DNA of 64,000 nt, taken from assembly GCA_016125085.1 (NCBI GenBank), contig WGMM01000026.1, positions 62,001 through 126,000 on the forward strand. Direction: 5' to 3'. The notes below the pieces were generated by a model that saw nothing but the letters and a program-made list of their open reading frames with translations, did not search any database and was not told the origin of the DNA. Source of the stretch: a bacterium (lineage in GTDB: Bacteria; Planctomycetota; Planctomycetia; Isosphaerales; Isosphaeraceae). Each line of letters starts with the position of its first letter. The first letter of the stretch is position 1. Made by a program: the position numbers and the translations under genes. Below, one piece after another: positions 3,547-57,558 of the stretch.

Positions 3547-4983
3547 ATGATCACCCTGCTCGGCAGCCCGAAACGATGCTGCGACGGCCTCACCCGGCGC
3601 GAGGCCCTTCGTGCCGGGGCCATTTCCCTCGGCTCCGGCCTGGGGCTGAATCTGCCGCAGGCTCTCATGGCCGAACAGGCTGGGACACTGCCGGGCAAGG
3701 CCAAAAGCGTGATCGTGCTCTACCTGCTGGGCGGCGCGGCCACACAGGACATGGTCGACATGAAGCCCGACGCCCCGGCCGAGGTGCGCGGCGAATTCCG
3801 CCCGGTCAAAACCAGCGTTCCCGGGCTGGACATCTGCGAGCACCTGCCGCGAATGAACAAATGGGCTCATCGGCTTGCCGTCGTCCGGTCGATGACCCAT
3901 CGCGGCGGCTGCCACAACCCCTTACCCAGCTACACCGGCTGGGAGACGATCCCGCCCGACCTCGTCACCACCAGCGACACCTATCCGCCCAGCATGGGCT
4001 CAGTGTGCGAGTACTTGCGCGAGGGCTCTCGGCCCCTGCCTGATTATGTCTATCTGCCGAATTACCTGGGCTGGGGGCAGTCGATCCGCCGGCCCGGGCC
4101 ATATGCGGGATTTCTCGGCAAGCGGTTCGACCCGCTGCATAGCGAATGCGACCCTCGTAACGACCCAGGCGCACCGGCCGAAAAGCCGTGGTTCCCGCAA
4201 GTGATCCGCGGCGAGCCGAAGATTCCCGACGCCACACCTGGCGATGGCATCACGGTCGACCGGCTCGATCGCCGCCGGACGCTGCTACAGCAGGTCGAAG
4301 ATGGCCTGAGGTCGCAAGAAACTTCACAAGCCGGCGATTCGTACGACCGGAACCGGCAGAGGGCGTTCGACATGGTCAGTTCGCCCGCGGCCCGGCGTGC
4401 GTTCGACCTTTCGAAAGAAGACCCGCGACGTCTTGACCGGTATGGCCGCACCCTGTTCGGCAACAGTGCGGCGATCGCCCTGAGACTCGTTCAGGCCGGA
4501 GTAAGGTTCGTGAACGTCACCTGGGACGTCTACTGGGAACGCCTGATGCTCCAGCATGACGGCTGGGACACCCACGGCCGCAACTTCGCCATATTGAAAG
4601 AATACAATCTTCCCTATTTTGATTTGGCCTTCGACGCCCTGATGGGCGATCTCGAATCGACGGGCCTGATCGACGAGACGCTCGTGGTGGTGATGAGCGA
4701 AATGGGCCGGACTCCGAAGATCAACGGCAGCTCGGGCCGCGATCACTGGACTTACTGTTACAGCACGATTCTGGCCGGGGCGGGTATTCGGGGCGGTACG
4801 GTTTACGGCGCCTCGGACGCTCAGGCGGCCTTCGTGAAGGACATGCCCGTGCGGCCGGCTGACTTGTGTGCCACGATTTACCGCTGCCTGGGCATCGACC
4901 CGGAAATGACCGTGCTGGACAAAACCGCCCGGCCGGTCGCGATCGCCCAGGGCGGCAGCCCGATTCAGGCAATACTTGCATGA
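3547..4983 (+). CDS. DUF1501 domain protein, exported
   Basis: This 478-residue member of DUF1501, an alkaline-phosphatase/sulfatase-fold family, starts with TRREALRAGAISLGSGLGL, a Tat-like or Sec signal. Family landmarks are VIVLYLLGGAATQDMVDMKP, GEFRPVKTSVPGLDICEHLPR, GWDTHGRN, and VVVMSEMGRTPKINGSSGRDHW near the C-terminus. In planctomycetes these genes commonly sit with DUF1549/DUF1553 genes; here the partner is the dimethylformamidase-like gene 28 bases upstream. The biochemical role of the family is unresolved. The stop codon overlaps the first A of a REP-like half element. Confidence 0.88.
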   Translation: MITLLGSPKRCCDGLTRREALRAGAISLGSGLGLNLPQALMAEQAGTLPGKAKSVIVLYLLGGAATQDMVDMKPDAPAEVRGEFRPVKTSVPGLDICEHLPRMNKWAHRLAVVRSMTHRGGCHNPLPSYTGWETIPPDLVTTSDTYPPSMGSVCEYLREGSRPLPDYVYLPNYLGWGQSIRRPGPYAGFLGKRFDPLHSECDPRNDPGAPAEKPWFPQVIRGEPKIPDATPGDGITVDRLDRRRTLLQQVEDGLRSQETSQAGDSYDRNRQRAFDMVSSPAARRAFDLSKEDPRRLDRYGRTLFGNSAAIALRLVQAGVRFVNVTWDVYWERLMLQHDGWDTHGRNFAILKEYNLPYFDLAFDALMGDLESTGLIDETLVVVMSEMGRTPKINGSSGRDHWTYCYSTILAGAGIRGGTVYGASDAQAAFVKDMPVRPADLCATIYRCLGIDPEMTVLDKTARPVAIAQGGSPIQAILA

Positions 4984-5666: not shown

Positions 5667-6185
5667 TCATTCGGACTCGTGGCGTTCGAGCGGCGAATTC
5701 GAACCTGACGTTTCGACGACATTCCAGGGATTCGAATCGAACTGTTCGATCAGCCGGATCGTGTCGAACGTGATTTCGAATTCCGAAGGCAGGCCGCAGG
5801 CGATCTCGATCGCATTTCCGGGCGATTTCGGATTCCGCGGATGTGCCAGTGTCATGTGCGGCCTGGCGTCGCGAATCGTGTCACTGCCGAGAATCGTCTG
5901 CCTCAGAATTCGAAATCTCTCGATGCCTTCGATACAGGGCAGCAGGATCCCGTGCCCGGCGAAAGATTCCGCCCGGCCGAAACGAAGAGTCTGCAGGATC
6001 ATTTCCGCCGGCATTGCGGCGAGCCGTTCCCGCCAGCCCTCGTACTTTTCGAGTTCGTCTTCACGGCAGAGGGTGACATGCGCCGGGATCAGGCTGTGCT
6101 GGACCGGATCGACGATGATACGAATGGCTTCGATCGGTCCGGCCAAGTTTTCCCGCACGAACATCGTCAATTGGGAGCGTTTCAT
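5667..6185 (-). CDS. 2'-5' RNA ligase / 2H phosphoesterase family protein
   Basis: The product has 172 residues and two HxT motifs, AHVTLCRE (about residue 35) and PHMTLAHP (about residue 110), which supply the paired catalytic histidines of the 2H phosphoesterase fold. Members cleave or form 2'-5' or cyclic phosphodiester bonds in RNA or nucleotides. The usual second-motif Thr is kept. The start codon overlaps the stop of the upstream membrane protein gene by 4 bases (ATGA), so the two are translationally coupled. The natural substrate is unknown. Confidence 0.82.
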   Translation of the reverse strand: MKRSQLTMFVRENLAGPIEAIRIIVDPVQHSLIPAHVTLCREDELEKYEGWRERLAAMPAEMILQTLRFGRAESFAGHGILLPCIEGIERFRILRQTILGSDTIRDARPHMTLAHPRNPKSPGNAIEIACGLPSEFEITFDTIRLIEQFDSNPWNVVETSGSNSPLERHESE

Positions 6186-6769
6186 TTGGCTTGATCCGCA
6201 TCCGTCGAGGAATGCCGCCGCTCATCCGAAGATTGCCGAGCTTCAGGGCGTTTCTCGTCCGGTTTTTCGACCGATCCGAGCAGATAACCCGCGATCGCGC
6301 CGAGGAGGCCAATCACGGGTGTCATTTGCTCGTTCGAATAGCCCGCGGTGACGAGCAGGATCGCACCCGTGATGATGAGCGTCAGTCCGTTGAAACGCAG
6401 GATGGCGTTCGGCGTCCAGTTCAGCGGCATTTTCACGACGAGCCACGTCTGAAGCGCGAAGACCATCGCCCCGAAAACCAGCACGGAGAAGCTCAGGACG
6501 ATTTCGATCGATGTCCATCGGCGTGTTTCGCCAGGCTGTTGCAGAACCGCAATTGGGGCTTGGCCGACAGGATGCTGATCGATTGGTTTTTCGGTCAGGA
6601 GATCAGGCGGCTGGCCGAAGATTTTCGACCTGTCGAGATCCTTGGCTGCCGAGGGTGGCTGAAATGCCCGGGGGGTCGTCTTGCCGGAATCCGGCGGCTG
6701 CTGCGCCCGGGCCGCAATTGGCGAAAAGATCAAAACCGACAGTGCGAATACGAGCCATTTGCATTTCAT
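6182..6769 (-). CDS. Small membrane protein, unrecognised
   Basis: The 195-residue product has a signal peptide (WLVFALSVLIFSPIAARAQ) and a Pro-rich stretch of about 50 residues. Two or three transmembrane helices follow (IEIVLSFSVLVFGAMVFAL, LTLIITGAILLVTAGY and IGLLGAIAGYLLGS), then a charged C-terminal tail. No family was recognised. It overlaps the 2H phosphoesterase gene by 4 bases and probably leads a two-gene operon. Confidence 0.7.
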   Translation of the reverse strand: MKCKWLVFALSVLIFSPIAARAQQPPDSGKTTPRAFQPPSAAKDLDRSKIFGQPPDLLTEKPIDQHPVGQAPIAVLQQPGETRRWTSIEIVLSFSVLVFGAMVFALQTWLVVKMPLNWTPNAILRFNGLTLIITGAILLVTAGYSNEQMTPVIGLLGAIAGYLLGSVEKPDEKRPEARQSSDERRHSSTDADQAK

Positions 6770-7223: not shown

Positions 7224-7348
7224 CGGCCGGTTTCCTAAGTTGCGACGATCGATCGGAAGTTTCGGACATGAAAGGATATGATCGTCCGTCCGGTGATCAC
7301 GGGCAATGGGCTCTCGCTTCCGCAAACGAAAAATAAGACCGGTCAAAA

Positions 7349-7401
7349 AAGCAAAAAGGGGACGGGGGTCATTTCCAGGAAATGACCCCCGTCCCCTTTG
7401 A
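7349..7401. repeat. REP-like inverted repeat, 22-base arms
   Basis: The arms (AAAGGGGACGGGGGTC... and its exact complement) are separated by a single base and would form a very stable hairpin. It lies between the upstream end of the VOC gene and the 3' end of the diacylglycerol kinase gene, both minus strand. The arm sequence is shared with 4983-5008 and 12309-12354. Confidence 0.85.
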
Positions 7402-7415
7402 TTCGTATGTAAGCG

Positions 7416-8090
7416 TCATTCCACCAGCAGTTCGTGAAGGCGCATGCCGAAGAGTGCGAGCGTTACGGCCGCGCCGACGATGACGCTCACCAGCACGCAG
7501 GCCGATCCGATATCACGCGCGGCCTGGGCGTGCTCGTCTTCGATCTGATCCGGTGTTTTTCCGGTTTCCACACGCGCAAGGGCGTCGATGGCCGAATTGA
7601 AAAGCTCGGAAAGGAGTATCAAACCGCCGCACAGCGAAAGGATGATCCAGGCCAGCGGGGGCAGCTGGATCATCACGCCGAACATGAGCACGATCGTGAA
7701 CCGGTAGCCGTGGGCGAAAAAGCTCGAATCGCCCCGGATGGCCAGTTTCAGGCCGTTCAGGCCCGCCCAGCTTTTGCCCAGGGTACCGCCGCGACGGTCG
7801 GCGCGGGTGAGCGGTTCTTCGGCAGGCAGAAGGAGTTCTTCGAGGATCTTGGGATCCGGCACGTTCACGGTCGCCGGCATCTGGTTCATAAGAGAAGGCG
7901 GCAGCTGATATTCCAGCGTCGGCTCTTCGTGGTCAAGCCGATAGGCGTCCGTGAACGACGTCAGCGTATAGCGCTTCGACGGCCGTTCCCGGTTCGGATC
8001 TCTGGGCCAGGCCGTTTCGGATCGGGGTCCGAGGGGAGCCCGGGTGTCATCCTTTCGAGGAGCTTCGTGAGGAGCGTTCCCGTTCTCCAT
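7416..8090 (-). CDS. Diacylglycerol kinase-like membrane protein with long N-terminal extension
   Basis: The last ~115 of 224 residues match the prokaryotic DgkA family: GLKLAIRGDSSFFAHGY, then LLSELFNSAIDAL carrying the catalytic Glu and Asn, then EHAQAARDIGSACVLVS. The third acidic position of the motif is Asp rather than Glu. DgkA phosphorylates diacylglycerol to phosphatidic acid, while relatives act on undecaprenol. The first ~110 residues are hydrophilic and disordered, not found in the classic ~120-residue enzyme. The ATG at 8090 is chosen because GGAGG lies 7 bases upstream; an in-frame GTG six bases earlier is less likely. Confidence 0.82.
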   Translation of the reverse strand: MENGNAPHEAPRKDDTRAPLGPRSETAWPRDPNRERPSKRYTLTSFTDAYRLDHEEPTLEYQLPPSLMNQMPATVNVPDPKILEELLLPAEEPLTRADRRGGTLGKSWAGLNGLKLAIRGDSSFFAHGYRFTIVLMFGVMIQLPPLAWIILSLCGGLILLSELFNSAIDALARVETGKTPDQIEDEHAQAARDIGSACVLVSVIVGAAVTLALFGMRLHELLVE

Positions 8091-8153
8091 CGTCACACCT
8101 CCCTGTGTCCGAACCCTGAATTCGTCGAATATCCGTCATGCCGTTTCAGCAGA

Positions 8154-11100
8154 TCACTGAGTCGGGGCGAACCGGCTGTCGAACCGGGGGCCGGCCGATT
8201 GGCCCAGCCGCAGGTTGGGGCTGAGACGCGGCGTGATTTCCACGGCGACCATCGTCGATTGCCGCTGCGGGTCGATCGCCAGGCCGATGCTCGTCAGGTA
8301 GTCGGCACCGATGCGGGTGACCGACACGTTCGAACCGAGCGAAATGCCGTTGCCGAAGTCGTAGCTCGTCATGAACGTGGAATACCATTTCGGGCTGATC
8401 CAGTAGCTATACGACAGGTTCAGGGCCGAGGTGTTCACCTCGCCGGTCTGAAGGATCGTGTAGCTGACGGTCGCGTTGCCCTTGGGCGGCCGGTTCGAAG
8501 AGAAGCCGGTCGTGATGATCTTCATGCCGAACGGGTCATTGGATCGATTCGGGTTGGTGTGGTTGAGCGCCTGGCCCTGAACATCCCAGAATTCGAACCA
8601 GCCGTTGGAGAACACGGTCGTGCGGTCCCCCACGTACCATTCCCAGTTATAGGTGTTCAGGCCCCAGTCCTGGCCGAAATTGTCGCGATCGGCCTGGGGG
8701 AAATACGTTGTGGAGAGGTCGAGGATCATCCAGTCGATCACGCGGCGCGCCCCTTCCGGGCCACGTTTCGTCTGAAGCCGGTGATTCCAGTTGAGCTGAA
8801 CCGTCTGCATGCTCTGAAGGACGTCCGTCGTACCCGTGATCGGCGACAGATTCCGGCGCGTGGCCAGCAGCAGCGGATTGTACTGAGGCGGCAGCACGCC
8901 GCCGCCGTAGTTGGTGAAGGCGAAATAGCGGCGGACGAACTCATAGGTGTTGTCGTCCAGCTCGTCCTGCACGCCGATCGCGTTCAGCGGCAGCGTCGAA
9001 TAGGCGTTGCGGTAATCGGCCCCGAAGTTCATCTTGTGATTCAGGCCGTGAACGTTGAGGATTTCGCTTTCGACCTCGTAGGCACGCCACATCATGATAT
9101 TGCCGCGGGCACCGGCAGCGCCCCAGAGACGGCCGACGAGCTGGTCGTTGCCGCTGCGGATGAGCTGCTGCACCTGATCAGGCGGGAGCGTGTAGGCCGG
9201 CAGTGCGTTATTGTATTGTCCGGACCAGCCGGCGGCCTGCCCCTGGGCATAGGGAGTGAACTTGAACGGGCCAAGATTCAGCGGCACGTCGACTTCGTGG
9301 CTCGTCCAAAGCCGGCCCGATCCGAACGCGCCGGAAGTCTGGCTGATCGGGTCATAAGGCTGGAATGCGAAAAGGTTCGGATTGTTGACCATCACGTCCG
9401 TGTGGACGTTCGCGTAATCGGCCCCGGAGTGGCTGTAGTGGGTGACGATGTCGCCCAGGAAGCTGTCGCCGATGCGGTAGTAATCGAGCTTAGGCAGCCA
9501 CTGAGTGTCCGTGTAGAACTGCTGCAGGTTGCCTTTGGCCAGAATGGAAAGGGCCTGATTTTCGTTCTGGCGGACCGCGTAAAAGGCCGTCTGGTGATCC
9601 AGGCCCGTGTCGTTGAGCCGTTTGTAGTATTGTTCCAGGAAGTAGCGGTCCGAAAGGTAGCCGAATTCCACCTGGAAGCGGGTGTCTTCGTCGAAGCGGG
9701 CATTGTCGCCCAGCAGGCTCTGCATGTGCCGATAGACCGTGCGGCCTCGCATGTTGTAGAAGTTCGGAATGTCGGAACGCTGGATACCCCGATTTCCGGC
9801 CGCGACCGGGTCGGTGATCACCGCGGGCCCAGTACCGAGAACGTCGTTACCGGTGTCCCAGATCCCCCAGATGTCGCCATAGCCGAAGTACGAGCCGGGG
9901 ATTCGGCCCCCGAACATGTCACGCCCGAAATAGCCGATTTCGGAGCCTGCCGCCGGGCCCCGGGCCGACAGATAGTCGAGGTCGAGGTTCCAGTTGTCGA
10001 TCCCCTTGGGCTTCTTCATGCCCAGGACTTTGAACATGGACCAGTCGGACAGGATCTGCTGGCCGAAGTAGTTGTTCGTACGGAACTGGAGCTGCTTGAG
10101 AGGCAGGTCGAGATCGTCCGGCGTCATTACGACACGCGGCAGATACAGAATCGGCAAGCTGCCCAGGTAGAACCGGTTGCGCCGGGCGTCGAGCTTCCAT
10201 TCGTAGTCGGTGCCCGGCATCGGATCGAGCGAGCCCGTGATCGGATTACGCAACGGCACTTCTTCCTGCGTGATCCGGATCAGGTCGCTGTCGAAACGGT
10301 AGCCGGGGTTCGGGAACCGGCTGCCCGTGGTGGACGTTCGGGAGACGTCGATCATCGGCCGGCCGATCTGCAGCGTACCATCTTCGCCCATCGCGGCTTC
10401 GCGCCACTGGCTGATGCGGTCGGCTTTCGTGCGGATCGGCGCCAGCAGGCCGGGGGCAAAAATGTTCAGCTCGGCCTGGATCGCCGTGAATCGGTCGGCA
10501 CGGGCATCGTAGTAGGCACTTTCGGCACGGACGACTCGTTCGTCGCCATTACCGGCGACTTTTCGTTCGTCCATCCGATACATCACGTTGCCTTCCAGAT
10601 AGACTTCCAGCGGTGCCTGGTTCGATTGCTTGAACTGGCCCGAGGGGTCGATCATCGTGGCCTTGGTCGTGTCGTCGTCCGTGATCCACAGGACGATTCG
10701 GTCGGCCGAAAGGTCGACTGTCCCGAACTGAGGGCCCGTTTCCATGACGATGTTCACGCCGCCCTGAATGACGACGATGCGCGTCTGCCCGACGAGCGGC
10801 AGCTCCTGAATCGAGAAATTGCGGCTGCTGTCGCGGGGAAAGATGCCGACGACACGCTGGGTTCCGGGAATGATCTCGGCCGGCCCGGCCTCTTCTTCCA
10901 GCGGCAGCGGCGCATCGCCCAGAATCAGGCTCGGCAACGGCATATTCGGCAGCGGGTCTTCCGGCAATGCCGGCGGCAGACCGCTCCGCGGCAGGCGCGT
11001 ATTGAGATCCCCTGCACCAGGGCCCGTGCGGCCCTGCGGCGGCTGACCGAATGCAGGCGGGGCGGCCTGGGGGTCATTCTCGGGCGCAGTGGCTGGCGGC

Positions 11101-49897: not shown

Positions 49898-50432
49898 CGA
49901 TGTCGAGCGGCCCGTCCGCTCCCTCCACTTAATGAGCCGCAAGTTCAAGTGATTTCAGCGGTTCGCACTGACCACCCGCACGGCCACGAACTCCTTGCGA
50001 TCGACCGACCGGTTCCGAAATAGCACGATTCCGCCCAACGGTAAACCCCAATCGAAGAAAGCGATCGCATCGATCCACAAGACTTTGAGAGCTCCGACAT
50101 ATCACGCTTCGGACCTCGTTTCGACCTCATTCCCCGCGGGCGGACTCATCTCCACCGATACTTGCATCGCTCCTGATCGTAAAACCTAATACATTACTAA
50201 CATCATGTTTTTTATAATTATTAATCTTGACTATCATAGTCATCGAGATAATTATTGTGATCGTCATCGAATCTGGCGAAACGTGCGTCAGAGGTCGGGC
50301 AGCATTCATTCCCGGGGAATTCGGCTGGTCTCGTGTATGAGCCGGGGCTCGGGGATGAAGCGGAGCGATCGAAAGCGGTCTCGCAAGGAATCGAGACGAC
50401 AAGACAACGAACCGAAGATTCAGGAAAAACTG
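49898..50432. other. Intergenic region between divergent genes
   Basis: The stretch 50160-50260 is strikingly AT-rich for this genome and contains a palindrome over a promoter-like element, listed separately. No gene was recognised. Confidence 0.45.
50227..50254 (+). promoter_or_regulatory. Candidate promoter with palindromic operator
   Basis: TTGACT at 50227 is a -35-like element and GATAATTA follows at 50247. A perfect 15-base palindrome TGACTAT-C-ATAGTCA at 50228-50242 overlaps the -35 element, as expected of a repressor site. It lies about 180 bases upstream of the DUF1559 start. Confidence 0.45.
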
Positions 50433-51419
50433 ATGAACGCAAGAACGGACAAAAGGGCATTCACCCTCATCGAACTGCTGGTGGTCATCGCCATCATCGC
50501 CGTGTTGATTTCGCTGCTGCTGCCGGCCGTGCAGTCGGCCCGCGAAGCCGCCCGGCGCGCCCAGTGCATCAATAACCTCAAGCAGATCGGCCTGACGGTG
50601 CACGGGTTTCACGACGTCAATGGCCACTTCCCGTCGAGCGTCCGGCCGTCGGGTTTGACGAACCTGCCGCGGATCGCCGGCACGTTGAGGCTTCTGCCTT
50701 ATCTGGAACAGAAGCAGGCCTATGACAATTACAACCTGGAGCACACCTGGGGCAACGCGCCGAACACGACGATCGCGGCGATTCGATTTTCGATGTTCCT
50801 GTGCCCATCAAGCCCGGCCGACACGAACCGGCTGGACGGCATCCCGGAACTCTCACCCTGGACACCGAACATCGCTGCGATCACGGATTACAGCGGGATC
50901 GCCAATATTGACTCACGGCTTTACGCACAAGGCCTTCTGACCAAAACCGGCAGCGGCAACGGAATCCTGCAGAAAAACGCGACCGTGACGATCGCAGCGG
51001 TTTCGGACGGTCTTTCGAATACGATTCTGTTCGCCGAATCGGCGGGCCGGCCTTTCAAATATCGTGCCGGCGGCAAACTGGCGGTGAGCGATCAGAAACT
51101 CTCCCGCGTCAATGGCGGCGGCTGGGTCCGCCCTGCCAGTGATATCACTTTCAAAGGATCGACGCAGGACGGCTCGCAAGTCATCGGCAAGTGCGCCCTG
51201 AATTGCACCAATGGCGACGACATCGCCCAGTCCCCGTTCCCGCACCCCCTGTACGTCACGGAAGGCACATCGGAAGTCTACGGATTTCATCCCGGCGGGG
51301 CTGGAATTCTGCTGGGCGACGGCTCGGTGCGGTTCGTGAAGCAGACGATCGACTTCAAGGTGTTCGCCTCACTCGTCACTCGCGACGGTGGTGAAGTGAT
51401 ATCGGCCGATTCCTGGTGA
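50433..51419 (+). CDS. DUF1559 pseudopilin-like protein, first copy
   Basis: The 328-residue product has a type IV pilin-like N-terminus (RAFTLIELLVVIAIIAVLIS then LLLPAVQSAREAARRAQC), a family-typical NNLKQIGLTVHGFHDVNG, and an H-x-G box near the C-terminus (GFHPGGAGILLGDGSVRF). DUF1559 is greatly expanded in planctomycetes and is thought to form extracellular or periplasmic structures through type II/IV-like machinery. AGGA lies eight bases before the ATG. A hairpin pair follows the stop. Confidence 0.9.
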   Translation: MNARTDKRAFTLIELLVVIAIIAVLISLLLPAVQSAREAARRAQCINNLKQIGLTVHGFHDVNGHFPSSVRPSGLTNLPRIAGTLRLLPYLEQKQAYDNYNLEHTWGNAPNTTIAAIRFSMFLCPSSPADTNRLDGIPELSPWTPNIAAITDYSGIANIDSRLYAQGLLTKTGSGNGILQKNATVTIAAVSDGLSNTILFAESAGRPFKYRAGGKLAVSDQKLSRVNGGGWVRPASDITFKGSTQDGSQVIGKCALNCTNGDDIAQSPFPHPLYVTEGTSEVYGFHPGGAGILLGDGSVRFVKQTIDFKVFASLVTRDGGEVISADSW

Positions 51420-51592: not shown

Positions 51593-52276
51593 TCAGGCGA
51601 TCGACCGCAACCTGCGGCGGTACAGGCCGATCGAAACGAGCCCGCAAGCCGTCAGAGCGATGGACGCCGGTTCGGGAACGGCGGCCGATCCGGGGTTGAC
51701 TTGAGAAGTGAACACGAATCGGTCAAGTTGCCCGATCCCGTCTTCAGGGATATAGATCAACAGCTTCTGCAGCGGCGAATCGGAAATGAAACCGATGAAA
51801 GAGGCCCCATTCACGGAGTCCATTTCATAGCTTTCGAGATTCGCCAGGGTGAACCGGAAACGAGTCGGGCTGGCGCCGAGCGATCGCCCGAAATCGAATC
51901 CGACGGCCAGTGTGTCGGCCGGCAGGTCGATTCGAAGCTCGTTGTCTGCACCGACATTGTATTGCCAGGAAAGGACCACGCCGTCGCCCAGCCCGTACGT
52001 ACCGGGATCATAGGCCGGATCGATGGCATAGAGATAGGCGTCCGCTTTCGCCGTGAAGGTGACGCCGGCGAGCGTAACGGTGCCGCCAGGATACGGGGCG
52101 TAATTGGTGTAGAGATCCGGCGGCGTGACCTGGTCATTGAAGTCGATCGTCGTCGGTGCGATCAGCTCTGCCTCGAACAGCGAGCGATCGGTGTAAAGGA
52201 CAGTGGATGCCCGTGAAGAGCCAGCGGCCAGGATCAGGGCCGCCATGCTGATGAGAAAAGAACGTTGTATTGACAT
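51593..52276 (-). CDS. PEP-CTERM-anchored exported protein
   Basis: The 227-residue product has a signal peptide (SFLISMAALILAAGSSRAS), a beta-rich body (about 25-195), and a PEP-CTERM signal: VPEPASIALTACGLVSIGLY followed by Arg-rich RRRLRS. PEP-CTERM proteins are processed by an exosortase and sent to the envelope or extracellular matrix. The ATG at 52276 has GGAG seven bases upstream. The body has no recognised function. Confidence 0.87.
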   Translation of the reverse strand: MSIQRSFLISMAALILAAGSSRASTVLYTDRSLFEAELIAPTTIDFNDQVTPPDLYTNYAPYPGGTVTLAGVTFTAKADAYLYAIDPAYDPGTYGLGDGVVLSWQYNVGADNELRIDLPADTLAVGFDFGRSLGASPTRFRFTLANLESYEMDSVNGASFIGFISDSPLQKLLIYIPEDGIGQLDRFVFTSQVNPGSAAVPEPASIALTACGLVSIGLYRRRLRSIA

Positions 52277-52666
52277 TGTACGCTCCAGGCGAATCCGAAA
52301 CGGGATGGATTCGATTCCGTACGAAAGAATCTTTGTCCGCAATCAGATTCGTCTCGTGCGATTCGAAATACAAATCGATTCTTACGAACGAACGAAAGTG
52401 AAGTTGCGAATTGTCAACCACGGAAGGCGGAATTCGTCGAAGTGGTTCGATACATACGGAATAACGGCGAACGCGTGACGATTCGCACTCGCAACATGTC
52501 TTTATCAAGCCACAGGCCGAACCGGTTCCGAACGATCGTGCACAAGCCGTACGCACAGCCGTTCGCAATTGCAATTGAGCGGAGACTTGCCTTTCGATTC
52601 GGAACGCGACCGCACGGATTCGTTCGCAACGCCGCCCGGGCAAGCGATCGAATCCGCACGGAACCG
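52277..52666. other. Intergenic region upstream of the PEP-CTERM gene
   Basis: This region runs from the 3' end of hemP to the PEP-CTERM start; both genes are on the minus strand. No promoter, hairpin or gene was recognised, although GATTCG/CGAATC-rich text recurs, a general feature of this genome. Confidence 0.4.
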
Positions 52667-52876
52667 TCATTTGTTGAGGATCAATTTCCCGTTCCGAGTC
52701 GCCCTGAGCTGATAGCACTGCCCCCGATAAGTGACGCACACGACTTTCGCACCCCTTGCGAGCGAATCGAAGTCGAGTACCGTCACCGGCTCAGGCTGGC
52801 CTGTGACAAGATTCGAACATGGTTTCGGGCAATCATGGCCCGCTTCGCATCCGGCGATTCGATCCCCTTCGAACAT
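52667..52876 (-). CDS. hemP: HemP-like hemin uptake protein, Cys-rich N-terminus
   Basis: This 69-residue gene has the HemP signature over its second half: [35 protein letters not shown]. HemP proteins are small, iron-regulated and linked to heme uptake. The ATG at 52876 has GAGG six bases upstream; a longer frame to 53089 would cross the regulatory palindrome and is not needed. The N-terminus is unusual in carrying three cysteines and a histidine ([11 protein letters not shown]), with Cys47 and Cys54 further on. It is divergent from a DUF1559 gene, and a Fur-box-like site lies between them. Confidence 0.78.
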
Positions 52877-52988
52877 GTGAAACCTCGTTCGGTCCTGATT
52901 TCGGATTGCCCCGTGAACGCTCACCATGCAGAGGATTTTCGGAGAATTCCCCACCCACCTCTTGCACCCGACCTCTGCCCGGCCTATC

Positions 52989-53015
52989 ATACTGACATTG
53001 AGACTCAGTATCAAT
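52989..53015. promoter_or_regulatory. Fur-box-like palindrome between hemP and DUF1559
   Basis: The 19-base ATTGAGACTCAGTATCAAT (52997-53015) is a 9-1-9 inverted repeat with one mismatch, the layout of a Fur box, and contains TGA-xAx-T/A-xTx-TCA. An overlapping perfect repeat ATACTGA-9-TCAGTAT spans 52989-53011. It sits 121 bases from the hemP start and 145 from the DUF1559 start, so it could control both. Confidence 0.6.
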
Positions 53016-53159
53016 ACGGTCTCGATGTCAGCCAGCTCCCTGGCGGGGATGCACACCGCCAGATCGCCAGCCATATCGGTCGAAGCCATCGTTTCGGCAA
53101 TTGAAGTGCCGCACGAACCGGGCTTCGGACACTTTCAAGGCGATACCTGGAGAAGGCCC

Positions 53160-54287
53160 ATGTCGTTCGTAAACGTCTGCCCGCGATATCTTTCGACAAC
53201 CCGGCCCCTGCCTCGAATACGGCGAGGATTCACGCTGATCGAACTGCTGGTCGTCATCGCGATCATCGCGGTGCTGATCTCGCTGCTGCTTCCTGCCGTG
53301 CAATCCGCACGTGAGGCCGCAAGACGCATCCAGTGCGTCAACAATCTCAAACAGATTGGCCTGGCGATCCATAACTATCACGACACCGTCGGCGTCCTTC
53401 CGCCAGCCTACCAGGGCGGTGCCGTGTCGCTCTACATGAACTTCACCGGCTTCGCCTTCCTGCTGCCGTATCTGGAACAGACAGCGGCCCAGAATTCGAT
53501 GAACTTCGACCTGAACATGGACGGCAATCCGCCGTATTACGGCTGGGCCATGCCAGGCAACACCACGGCCTTCGGCATGCAGTTTTCCGTGTTCCTGTGT
53601 CCGTCGAACCGGCCGAAGACCGAAGTCAGCGCGTCGTTTTCGTTCGGCGCGATCCATTGGGAAGTCGCCCGCCCCGCCGTCACCGACTATCTCTTCAATG
53701 GCGGCGCGAACCGTTATGCGGCCAAAGGTTACGGCGACCAGAACCTGGCCGGCCCGTTCGGTATCGACACCGCCACGAGTATCGGTCAGGTCACCGACGG
53801 AACCAGCAACACGATCGCCATGGGCGAATCGGCCGGAGGCAACGCGGCCAACAAGTTCCGGTCTCTCGGCACAGGTACGTCGCGAGTTTGCGTGCCCCTG
53901 GCCACGCCGCTGAGCTACGCCCCTTCGGCCACGGTGCATCACGACAACATCATGTTCATGGCTTACGGCCGTGCACGCAACTGGGGCACCGACAAGCGCG
54001 TGATCGGCGGCGTCCTGGCCCGGTCCGTCGACGCCACCGGTTACCCCTATCGCCTGAACGACTGCGTTTCGGACACCTGGGCCGACCTGTTCATCCCCGC
54101 CCCCGGGCTGCCCTCGCCTGCCGCCGGCCAGACTTTTCCGAACTTCCGATCGACTCACCCCGGCATCGTCAACACCGTTTTTCTCGATGGCTCGGTGCGT
54201 GCTCTCAAGGAAACGATCGGCGACGCACCCCTGACCGGACTCTCCACGATCCGGGGCGGCGAAGTGCTCTCCGCCGATTCCTACTGA
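53160..54287 (+). CDS. DUF1559 pseudopilin-like protein, second copy
   Basis: The 375-residue product has the same pilin-like start as the copy at 50433 (RGFTLIELLVVIAIIAVLIS, then PAVQSAREAARR), preceded by a ~20-residue basic leader. The family pattern is complete: NNLKQIGLAIHNYHDT, QVTDGTSNTIAMGES, and FRSTHPGIVNTVFLDGSVRA at the C-terminus. The ATG at 53160 has GGAGA seven bases upstream. It leads a plus-strand set of three genes: DUF1559, small lipoprotein and DUF4198/Kelch protein. The Fur-like box upstream suggests metal control. Confidence 0.88.
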   Translation: MSFVNVCPRYLSTTRPLPRIRRGFTLIELLVVIAIIAVLISLLLPAVQSAREAARRIQCVNNLKQIGLAIHNYHDTVGVLPPAYQGGAVSLYMNFTGFAFLLPYLEQTAAQNSMNFDLNMDGNPPYYGWAMPGNTTAFGMQFSVFLCPSNRPKTEVSASFSFGAIHWEVARPAVTDYLFNGGANRYAAKGYGDQNLAGPFGIDTATSIGQVTDGTSNTIAMGESAGGNAANKFRSLGTGTSRVCVPLATPLSYAPSATVHHDNIMFMAYGRARNWGTDKRVIGGVLARSVDATGYPYRLNDCVSDTWADLFIPAPGLPSPAAGQTFPNFRSTHPGIVNTVFLDGSVRALKETIGDAPLTGLSTIRGGEVLSADSY

Positions 54288-54311: not shown

Positions 54312-54533
54312 ATGCACCATAAACGCGTGTTCTTCTGGACGACGGCCGCTCTCGTAGCCCTTTCTTCGCCTGGCTGCGGCACATCGGAACAGACGATGGC
54401 CGTATCGAAACTCGCATCCCCCGATTCGCCAGAATTCCACAAAGCCCAGGAAGATGCGAATCGCACCCTCCAGCGGCAGGAGCAGGACGAAGCCCGCCTG
54501 CGCAAGCGACGCAAACTGCCGCAGGACGAATGA
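54312..54533 (+). CDS. Small lipoprotein
   Basis: The 73-residue product has a lipoprotein signal ending LSSPGC (Cys at about 22) and a short, highly charged helical tail (EDANRTLQRQEQDEARLRKR). It starts 24 bases after the DUF1559 stop. No family was recognised; such small lipoproteins often sit behind DUF1559 genes. Confidence 0.75.
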   Translation: MHHKRVFFWTTAALVALSSPGCGTSEQTMAVSKLASPDSPEFHKAQEDANRTLQRQEQDEARLRKRRKLPQDE

Positions 54534-54554
54534 AACCCGCAGATCATCCTGTCA

Positions 54555-54581
54555 AACTGAGACTGAATCCGAGTCTCAGTT
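54555..54581. promoter_or_regulatory. Palindrome upstream of the DUF4198/Kelch gene
   Basis: The perfect 10-7-10 inverted repeat AACTGAGACT/AGTCTCAGTT shares TGAGACT with the Fur-like box at 52997. It lies 22 bases past the lipoprotein stop and 53 before the next start. No T-run follows, so an operator is favoured over a terminator, but neither is proven. Confidence 0.5.
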
Positions 54582-54634
54582 CGTTCGAGCTTCCAACATC
54601 ACAAAACCCCCGACTCACATTGGAGCTACCGAAG

Positions 54635-56311
54635 ATGTCGTATTTCGCCGGATCGGCCCGCCGTTGGGCCGCTGCATTCCTGTCCGCCTTCCTGATCAGC
54701 TCAGCCGCATCGCCCGCCCGGGCCCACTTCCTCTGGATCGTGGTCGAGCCGGACGCATCCGCCAATTCGCCCCTGGTGCATCAGGCCCATGTGTTCCTCT
54801 CGGAAACGCCGGTGCCTGAAAGCGAAAAGATGCTGAAATTCGTCAACGGAGTACAAGTCAAAACGCCGCAAGGGGCCGTCTTCCCGCTGACCACGGGCAG
54901 TGAAAGCCGTGAAGGCACCTGGCTGGGTGCCCTGCCCGCCACGCTCGATGCCGAACGCGACATGGGCGTGATGACCAGAGGCGACAAATCGTTCCAGCTC
55001 GCCTACACAGCCCGAATGCAGGCCGCCCCCGCGAAAGCCGACGATGCCGAAAAGCTCAAGGGGCTGCGAGTGCGCCTGATCGAACGCACGGGCAGTGAGC
55101 CGGCGTTGCAGGTCGTCAATGACGGCAAACCCGTCGCGGACGCTCGCGTGCGTGTCTATCCCGATACCGGCGATCATTTCGAAGTGAAGACGGATTCAGC
55201 CGGTATCGTGCAACTCACCGACAAAGCTCACAGGAAATCGCTGGCCGATGGGCACCTTGCCGTCTTCGCCACCTGGACCGACCCGACTCCGGGCAAATCG
55301 GGTGAAAAGCCCTACTCGGAAACCCGTCATTACGCCACCTGGACAGCCTCTCCCGGAATCGGCAAATCAAATGCAACCGCCGGGATGCCTTCAGTCATCG
55401 GCCACATGCCCTCACCGGCCGTAAACGCCTTCGGCGGAGCCGTTCTGGGCGACTGGCTTTACGTCTATTCCGGCCACATCGGCAAAACGCACAAATACGA
55501 CACCGGCACGACGACCAGGACATTCCGAAGATTCAATCTCAAGGATCGCAAAACCTGGGAAGATCTGCCGATCGAGCGTGATCTGCAGGGTGTCGCGCTG
55601 GTGTCCGACGGCAAATACCTGTATCGCACGGGCGGCATGTACGCTTCGAACCCCCGTGGCGAAACCGCCGTGCTGCACAGCGTGGCCGAATGCGAGCGCT
55701 TCGACCCGGAAACGAAAACCTGGACGAAGCTGCCCGACATGCCCGAGCCTCGATCGACGCACGACGCTTATGTGATCGGCCGGACGATGTTCGTCGCCGG
55801 CGGCTGGAATCTCGTGGGATCGACGGACGAAAGCGACTTCCACACGCACATGATTTCGTTGAATCTGGATGCCCCGGAAAAAGGCTGGAGCAAGGTGGAA
55901 CAGCCTTTCGAACGCCGGGCGCTTTCCGTGGCCGAATCGGGCGGCAAGCTGTACGTTCTGGGCGGGCTGATGAGCGACAGCGGCGTTTCGCGCCAGGTCG
56001 ACATTTACGACCCGGCCAGCGGGCAATGGTCAAAAGGCCCGGAATTGCCAGCCGGAACGAAGGCCGAAGGCTTCGGCACCGCGGCATTCACCGTAAACGG
56101 CCGATTGTATTACAACGGCGTAACCGGCCCGATCTATCGCCTTTCGAAAGATGGCCTCAATTGGGAAGCCGTCGGCCAGTGGCACATCCCGCGCATCACG
56201 CACAGGATTCTGCCGGGCCTTGACGGCGACCTGCTGGCCGTCGGCGGTAACGTCGGCCGCGAGCAGACGCGCGTGATCGAATCGCTGCCGGTGCGGGTTT
56301 TGAAGGATTGA
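54635..56311 (+). CDS. Exported DUF4198-like / Kelch-repeat fusion protein
   Basis: The 558-residue product has a signal peptide (AAAFLSAFLISSAASPARA). The following ~230 residues start HFLWIVVEPDASAN and resemble DUF4198-type proteins, including DARVRVYPDTGDHFEVKTDS. The C-terminal ~310 residues form Kelch-like beta-propeller blades, for example GDWLYVYSGHIGKTHKYDTG, YLYRTGGMYASNPRGETAV and MFVAGGWNLVGSTDESDFHT. DUF4198 proteins are often tied to metal uptake. The palindrome upstream resembles the one by hemP. The family reading is good for both halves; function is not known. Confidence 0.8.
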   Translation: MSYFAGSARRWAAAFLSAFLISSAASPARAHFLWIVVEPDASANSPLVHQAHVFLSETPVPESEKMLKFVNGVQVKTPQGAVFPLTTGSESREGTWLGALPATLDAERDMGVMTRGDKSFQLAYTARMQAAPAKADDAEKLKGLRVRLIERTGSEPALQVVNDGKPVADARVRVYPDTGDHFEVKTDSAGIVQLTDKAHRKSLADGHLAVFATWTDPTPGKSGEKPYSETRHYATWTASPGIGKSNATAGMPSVIGHMPSPAVNAFGGAVLGDWLYVYSGHIGKTHKYDTGTTTRTFRRFNLKDRKTWEDLPIERDLQGVALVSDGKYLYRTGGMYASNPRGETAVLHSVAECERFDPETKTWTKLPDMPEPRSTHDAYVIGRTMFVAGGWNLVGSTDESDFHTHMISLNLDAPEKGWSKVEQPFERRALSVAESGGKLYVLGGLMSDSGVSRQVDIYDPASGQWSKGPELPAGTKAEGFGTAAFTVNGRLYYNGVTGPIYRLSKDGLNWEAVGQWHIPRITHRILPGLDGDLLAVGGNVGREQTRVIESLPVRVLKD

Positions 56312-56541: not shown

Positions 56542-57558
56542 TCACTCTGCCTTCGCCGCTGTCGTTTTCACGATCGTGGCCACCATTTCGTCGATCGTCC
56601 ATTCACCGCCGGCCTTGCCGACGTCCAGTCGGGCGATCGTACCGTCGGGCGCGATCACGGCCGTGCACAGGTTGTGCATGATTTCCTTTTCGCCGGGCCC
56701 GTAGATCAAACCGAGCTGTGGGCCGAATTTGCCAAGCTCTTCGTGCGAGGCGACCGAATAGGTCCACAGAGGCGGCTTCGCTCCGCGCGCTTTAGCATGG
56801 CTGGTCAGCACCTCAGGCGTATCATGTTCCGGGTCGAAGCTGATCGAAAGCAGCCGCACCTTGTCCTCGCGCGGGGTGTTCCGCAGCCGGGCGGCCAGTT
56901 CGCCGAACTTGCGGTCCATCAGCGGGCAGAAAGTCGGCACCGGGCAGCGGGTGTAGACGAAAGTCAGCACGAGCGTTTTGCCCCGATAGTCACTGATTTT
57001 GGCCGATTTGCCGTCCTGCAGCGTCACGGTCATGTCCGGAGCCAGTTCTCCGGGCGAAAGCACCACGGGCTTGGCCTTCACCTCGACCTTGCCGTCCGGG
57101 CCGATGGAAATCGCCGCCGGCGGGGCGGGGTTGGTGATGACGACGTCCTTGAGCAGCATGTCGTCGGGCTTCACCACGAGGCTGCCCTCGATCTCGTCGC
57201 CCACGAACAGCTCGCCCAGCACTTCCTGCCCCTTCAGGTCGAAGGGCATCGTCATGGCTTTCATGAAGCCGGGGATTTCCTCGTGGCGGACCATCACCTC
57301 GCCGGTGTCCTTGTCGATCTCACGCACGATGCCCTTGAGCTTGTAAGTCTTTTCGCCTGGCTTTTCCTGCTTGCCCGCTTCGGCCTTCTCGGCCGATGCA
57401 GGAACGGCAGAAGCAGTCGATTCGCCCGCATTCGCCGGAGCCGCCACAGGAGGAGCCACTGGAGGCGGCGCGACGGTCTTCGAGACCTTCAATACGCCGA
57501 AATTCAATGCTGCGGCGATGGCCGCAATGACGACTAACGGGACCGTATAGCGCGACAT
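56542..57558 (-). CDS. SCO1/SenC-family copper protein with CusF-like domain
   Basis: The 338-residue product has an N-terminal membrane anchor (VPLVVIAAIAAALNFGVL), a Pro/Ala-rich linker, and a CusF-type copper-binding domain with VRHEEIPGFMKAMTMPFDLK (about 90-110). A thioredoxin-like SCO domain (about 180-335) follows, with the metal-site cysteines in TRCPVPTFCPLMDRKF (spacing CX5C) and the His in MHNLCTAVIAPDG. SCO proteins deliver copper to cytochrome oxidase. The start codon overlaps the stop of the creatininase gene by one base. Confidence 0.9.
   Translation of the reverse strand: MSRYTVPLVVIAAIAAALNFGVLKVSKTVAPPPVAPPVAAPANAGESTASAVPASAEKAEAGKQEKPGEKTYKLKGIVREIDKDTGEVMVRHEEIPGFMKAMTMPFDLKGQEVLGELFVGDEIEGSLVVKPDDMLLKDVVITNPAPPAAISIGPDGKVEVKAKPVVLSPGELAPDMTVTLQDGKSAKISDYRGKTLVLTFVYTRCPVPTFCPLMDRKFGELAARLRNTPREDKVRLLSISFDPEHDTPEVLTSHAKARGAKPPLWTYSVASHEELGKFGPQLGLIYGPGEKEIMHNLCTAVIAPDGTIARLDVGKAGGEWTIDEMVATIVKTTAAKAE

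Follow-up and report, generated by a model that had tools for sequence, protein, structure and literature searches.

A HemP-family gene opposite a pseudopilin-like cassette across a predicted Fur-type operator in a planctomycete genome

The window, the whole stretch of 64,000 nucleotides analysed here, encodes on its minus strand a predicted HemP/HmuP-family protein (hemP, 52667..52876), which lies divergent from a cassette of pseudopilin-like surface genes with a predicted Fur-type operator between the two. This hemP-operator-DUF1559 arrangement recurs, as judged from gene content, across planctomycete families. We propose that hemP is part of a Fur-repressed iron-starvation locus in which the pilin-like surface cassette takes the usual place of the TonB heme receptor, a reading that stands about an even chance of being right. 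The linkage of hemP with the cassette, the operator and the location of FeoAB behind the same operator can be read directly from the sequence, while Fur regulation and a role of the hemP locus in iron or heme uptake are predicted. The neighbourhood of hemP, operator and cassette matters more than the cysteine-rich N-terminal tail of HemP to which an earlier note had drawn attention; the tail alone would matter little.

The hemP gene and its predicted operator

A HemP-like protein had been recognised at this position by the earlier note, and profile search of the translated ORF bore this out: the product of 69 aa (plus stop codon) scored 43.2 bits to PF10636 (hemP; cut-off 25) over residues 35-69 (52670..52774, minus strand). 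The planctomycete origin of the DNA also held. The best start of hemP is ATG 52876, six bases downstream of a Shine-Dalgarno GAGG (52883..52886, minus strand). It lies upstream of the cysteines, which disposes of the suspicion that the true start might lie downstream of them. GTG 52786, without a clear Shine-Dalgarno, was the sole in-frame start seen in the next 39 codons. Alternative in-frame starts further upstream (GTG 52924, ATG 52927, GTG 52954 and five higher up) would lengthen HemP, with the cysteines retained either way, and those from 52990 upward fall inside or above the predicted hemP promoter. Translation from a longer ORF of 140 aa (ATG 53089) was rejected because its start lies above this promoter.

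Only one copy of hemP was found in the genome that carries the window. Its C-terminal core is retained, including the invariant Tyr55, LxxT and GKLILNK, the last of which presents the KLILxK motif as KLILNK. The domain also contains C47, C54 and Tyr50, the last within the I-x-H-x-G-x-x-Y stretch, where 95 of 118 planctomycete HemPs have a His; the other residues at this place are Tyr (8, the window HemP counted), Leu (7), Phe (6) and Asn (2). In these sequences the His is variable and not defining, with 22 other planctomycete HemPs also lacking it. A structural model of HemP gave pLDDT values of 87-94 in the domain versus 58-63 in residues 1-30. Its four best fold matches in Foldseek were to 4YNX (two chains), 2LOJ and 2JRA (E 0.0099-0.046), and such matches of a model to HemP-family structures are supportive rather than decisive. 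By sequence, YdiE aligns to residues 16-69 of the protein (E 0.0077).

The 7-1-7 palindrome TGAGACTCAGTATCA (52999..53013) separates hemP from the divergent cassette and covers the predicted -35 element and spacer of the hemP promoter, which consists of TTGATA (53014-53009), a 17-bp spacer and TATGAT (52991-52986) and spans 52986..53014 on the minus strand. The scans employed the 7-1-7 Fur consensus and the sigma-70 hexamers, and the operator pattern was fixed after the window site had been seen. A second, overlapping match to the operator (14/15) lies at 52993-53007. The promoter search by itself is weak, with one promoter found compared to a shuffle mean of 0.4. A box of 14 or 15 of 15 positions was present upstream of hemP in 84 of the 118 loci with at least 300 bp of upstream sequence, and in 7 of 1124 random segments, 6 of these 7 being within cassette loci of the window's own family. 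The first, stricter pattern was found in 83/118 hemP upstream regions, where shuffling of mononucleotides gave an expectation of ~0.1. Near the box, a promoter with no more than two mismatches was located in 40 of the 84 loci (0.5 expected from shuffles), an excess that is partly built in because the box contains TTGA.

Scanning the 6.09-Mb genome with the exact pattern (TGABAHTNADTVTCA) returned four sites, and none in the control. These are the hemP locus itself, FeoA-FeoB, a second DUF1559 gene and the region of a small hypothetical ORF. One Fur-family protein was found encoded in the same genome. The strongest indication that the box is a Fur operator is the presence of FeoAB behind it. 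From its sequence, 52999-53013 is annotated here as a Fur-type operator that overlaps the hemP promoter prediction. The second DUF1559 gene (L242:3164-4189, minus strand) has its exact box at 4230, 41 bp upstream of the ATG, and is not accompanied by hemP; it is followed by a further DUF1559 gene and a thioredoxin-like gene, both on the opposite strand. The fourth site (L246, near 5343) adjoins a small hypothetical ORF of ~108 codons on the minus strand, identified by eye, and an Hsp20 gene. After FeoB lies a 70-aa ORF with a Cys-rich end (L247:2677-2889, minus strand; no Pfam or NCBIfam match), which has the look of what we take to be a FeoB-associated Cys-rich membrane protein. In a look for the HmuP-responsive element, GCCAGCC occurred once, at 53066.

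The divergent cassette and its linkage to hemP

The first gene of the cassette (53160..54287, plus strand) encodes a pseudopilin-like protein with N_methyl, SBP_bac_10 and H-X9-DG matches, the prepilin N-terminus, PF07596 and the H-X9-DG end (TIGR04294) placing it in the DUF1559 family. Its start is assigned to ATG 53160 after GGAGAAGG (GGAG); the mechanical ORF begins at 52926. Structural modelling gave a long N-terminal helix, and fold search with this model returned weak pilin matches only (best 1AY2, E 0.22). The gene is followed by a small lipoprotein-like ORF of 73 aa (54312..54533, plus strand) with a Cys after a hydrophobic stretch, as judged by eye, and no Pfam match. Next comes a kelch protein, predicted to be secreted and DUF4198-like in its N-terminal part (54530..56311, plus strand; likely start ATG 54635), scoring 75 bits to Kelch_1 and 26.9 bits to DUF4198, the latter below the cut-off of 34; two of its relatives reach 33.9 and 42.4 bits to DUF4198. 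No transporter was found in the cassette by profile search of the neighbouring genes. A further DUF1559 gene 2.5 kb away (50205-51419, plus strand) has no operator (best 13/15); DUF1559 paralogues differ in control. Elsewhere in the neighbourhood, 56542-57558 (minus strand) encodes CusF-like copper-binding and SCO1/SenC domains in one protein, and the product of 51593-52342 (minus strand) has a PEP-CTERM-like end (VPEPASIALTACGLVSIGLYRRR) and no Pfam match.

Among 115 planctomycete hemP loci with at least 1200 bp of upstream sequence, the window counted, 55 have a divergent DUF1559 gene within 900 bp and 60 do not. The chance expectation is 0.55 at the mean DUF1559 density of 12 genomes, or ~1 at the highest density with unscored candidates. 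The operator is present in 53/55 of the linked loci versus 31/63 of the others, and 32 of 118 hemP loci have neither the divergent DUF1559 gene nor the operator. The 55 linked loci carry at least six family labels and are related, so they do not represent 55 independent events. Where at least 4.4 kb of upstream sequence was available, a kelch/DUF4198-type gene also lay downstream in 12 of 24 linked versus 4 of 31 unlinked loci.

A tree was built from 90 DUF1559 proteins (55 linked, 14 from hemP-less cassettes of the window's own family and 21 unlinked), on which the linked label takes 6 changes versus a shuffled mean of 28.1. The linked proteins are clustered and do not form one clade, indicating that more than one DUF1559 lineage, at least two, came to lie beside hemP. 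The window protein groups with the cassettes of its own family (100/100). Two unlinked proteins fall inside the linked clade, one from the same genome as the window with an operator and one from G310 without; the expectation of an operator at such unlinked members was thus borne out by one of the two.

The cassette also occurs without hemP. Matches to the kelch protein occurred in 25/45 family genomes, in 20 of these (the window's own included) at E below 1e-80; the 3 other genomes of the genus had none. In 13 relatives with hemP-less cassettes, a box of 14 or 15 of 15 was found upstream of 14/14 DUF1559 genes, and no HemP-like ORF lay opposite DUF1559. The cassette therefore does not need HemP, because hemP is missing in 44 family genomes yet the cassette persists in many.

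The TonB plug domain PF07715 was found in 0/45 family genomes, including that of the window (3 of 14 control genomes were positive), and no TonB-dependent receptor was found among the tested neighbouring genes of the window hemP. Of 30 hand-picked hemP-bearing genomes, 12 had a PF07715 match. The plug was present in 4/20 genomes with a DUF1559-linked hemP versus 7/9 without (Fisher p = 0.010). G700 was left out of this count; the fetched stretch around its hemP shows no DUF1559 gene and no TonB receptor, so that its inclusion would give 8/10 among genomes without linked DUF1559. A TonB receptor lay no more than 3 kb from hemP in 0/55 linked versus 11/64 other records (0/27 versus 8/39 for records with 2.9 kb on both sides), and some of these receptors occupy the same divergent place as DUF1559. 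One locus, L184, has two HemP matches ~120 bp apart (6001-6117 and 6235-6348, minus strand) and a divergent TonB receptor (7307-9844). A HemP subgroup with the end CLKATSNGRLYLTK is found in L068, L070, L038 and L042, with a divergent TonB receptor in the last two.

The cassette could instead be a Fur-controlled bystander that makes adhesion or biofilm fibres under iron starvation, with hemP sharing the operator by promoter adjacency only, which we regard as possible though somewhat unlikely. It would fit with the sheer number of DUF1559 genes (49-101 matches per genome in 12 genomes) and their reported stress response in Rhodopirellula (PMC2754498), as well as with the persistence of the cassette without hemP and the lack of a detected transporter in it. 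At least two separate DUF1559 lineages adjoin hemP, however, and TonB receptors lie near hemP where DUF1559 does not, in part at the same divergent place, both of which argue against mere adjacency. In Caulobacter, moreover, DUF4198 genes rank with those most strongly induced by iron starvation, and one of them adjoins a hemin receptor (PMC3751524).

Distribution of hemP and its cysteine-rich N-terminus

hemP is present in 1 of 45 family genomes, that of the window, with no match in the 3 other genomes of the genus or in the 44 others of the family, whereas 248 of the 397 genomes sampled from the class had a match. A same-genus match in G036 (31%, residues 5-52 only) contains two in-frame stops and is not HemP. 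Its presence in 1/45 family genomes could mean that hemP is being lost from this lineage and survives here as a decaying remnant, in which case the cysteines, the lost His and the low score (43.6 bits in the phylum-wide search, near the bottom of the 53 listed matches) would all represent drift. We consider this distinctly unlikely, as the open frame, Shine-Dalgarno, predicted promoter and operator are all intact and Tyr55, LxxT and GKLILNK are retained at the C-terminus.

The earlier note had also reported cysteines before the HemP domain and two more inside it, and translation located these at C10, C16 and C20 (spacing C-x5-C-x3-C; codons of residues 10-20 at 52817..52849, minus strand) and at C47 and C54. 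At the Cys frequency of 0.78% in 24 long ORFs of the window, three or more Cys in 29 residues have P = 0.0015, uncorrected for the dozens of genes scanned, and for at least five across all 69 residues P is 0.0002, likewise uncorrected; the Cys content is unusual, not overwhelming. A sample of 119 distinct planctomycete hemP loci was then considered, 118 of them with a predicted start (L160 was dropped, no start being found), and any Cys before the last 40 residues was counted as N-terminal. There was none in 103 HemPs, one in 14 and three in the window HemP alone. That such a start is unusual for HemP was thus well observed, two or more N-terminal Cys being found in 0/117 other planctomycete HemPs examined. 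In the nearest relatives found (L002, L158, L161, L162, L067, L075 and others; 45-63% across the C-terminal region) the set is not shared, and alignment starts no earlier than about residue 15. A 17-residue match along the Cys stretch in L016 (Geminicoccus) was discarded as spurious, with no HemP at that locus. The hemP-less relatives were also screened, upstream of DUF1559, for a divergent small protein from which the tail might derive, and nothing similar to it turned up.

The further suggestion of an iron, heme or metal-cluster site fared less well. The conservation check was run on planctomycete HemPs, a sample without hemP-bearing close relatives, and the set was absent from all 117 others; the segment is also the low-confidence part of the model, and no other Pfam family matched the protein at E up to 1. 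A working metal/heme site (C10, C16, C20, perhaps H14, C47 and C54), gained recently in this lineage alone and after loss of the His, is highly doubtful: although five Cys in so short a protein, Tyr50 at the place of the His, the Cys-Pro pair C16-P17, which we take to be a heme-regulatory motif, and the HemP of L056, whose last 48 residues contain four Cys at positions unlike those here, would speak for it, the Cys spacing was not recognised by motif search, and near relatives with Tyr or Phe at the His place (L002, L161, L163) do not have these Cys, indicating that Cys is not a needed replacement for His. Most likely the N-terminal tail is flexible, private to this HemP and has no conserved role; it looks like a one-genome oddity.

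A possible iron-starvation locus and its known counterparts

HemP/HmuP proteins are known from proteobacteria as regulators needed for heme use and as partners of TonB-dependent heme receptors (PMC9131926, PMC9241770). ChuP binds heme with a Kd of about 18 uM and raises expression of TonB-receptor genes, possibly after transcription (PMC9131926), and Stenotrophomonas HemP represses (PMC9241770). The C-terminal His and Tyr of HemP take part in heme binding, and the KLILxK motif was described in the same work (PMC9241770); of these reported residues, the window HemP has kept Tyr55 and not the His. Among the matches listed in literature searches, none linked iron regulation to DUF1559 or to planctomycete HemP.

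In the proposed Fur-repressed locus, Fur-Fe2+ would repress both directions, hemP and the cassette, when iron is plentiful, and both would be expressed upon iron starvation. HemP would then act as a small regulator aiding expression of the neighbouring surface gene, as in proteobacteria, the gene served being the pseudopilin cassette here and a TonB-dependent receptor elsewhere. The pilin-like proteins and the DUF4198/kelch protein may assist in collecting iron or heme, either on the cell surface or in the periplasm. If so, this would be a first specific role for part of DUF1559, a family with dozens of paralogues per genome, and an iron acquisition route without TonB receptors. DUF1559 is the largest paralogue group in Planctopirus, its function being stated as unknown (PMC10632474), and as a large paralogous family it is likely to have other roles as well (PMC10632474, PMC2754498). 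In Planctopirus and Gemmata, pili-like fibres bind gold-dextran (PMC5394234). Against the proposed locus count the 60 hemP loci with no divergent DUF1559 gene within 900 bp, the Tyr at the His place, the persistence of the cassette without hemP and the DUF4198 score below its cut-off.

A more speculative version, which we hold to be rather unlikely, is that TonB-less planctomycetes have a Fur-controlled, pilin-like uptake in which HemP senses heme and tunes the cassette, and in which Cys ligands have replaced the lost His. The DUF1559 pseudopilin would collect the ligand, whether on fibres or on the cell surface, and the lipoprotein and DUF4198/kelch proteins would receive it; the Cys ligands, the Cys-Pro pair among them, would belong to the window lineage alone.

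Returning to the Fur-repressed iron-starvation locus as the preferred reading, the window HemP resembles the HemP/HmuP/ChuP proteins (PF10636) of proteobacteria in its domain, the C-terminal KLILxK, the predicted fold, the Fur-type operator upstream and the surface-protein neighbours. Unlike these systems, its neighbour is a DUF1559 pseudopilin cassette, with no TonB-dependent receptor found in the genome, and the protein itself has Tyr for the usual His and carries three additional cysteines at its N-terminus. The best matches to its model were the solved HemP-fold proteins E. coli YdiE (4YNX), Salmonella TSTM1273 (2LOJ) and RPA2121 (2JRA), a comparison that covered fold and, for YdiE, also sequence. 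Similar to the Caulobacter clusters CC2191-2197 and CC3059-3063, in each of which a DUF4198 gene is the most iron- and Fur-responsive (PMC3751524), the cassette combines a DUF4198-like gene with Fur control, which is predicted in the window. However, the Caulobacter clusters contain TonB receptors and other transport genes (PMC3751524), whereas the weak DUF4198 match here is fused to kelch and lies behind a pseudopilin. The pseudopilin gene shares its PF07596, N_methyl and TIGR04294 matches with other planctomycete DUF1559/H-X9-DG proteins, from which the window lineage differs in its position behind a predicted Fur-type operator.
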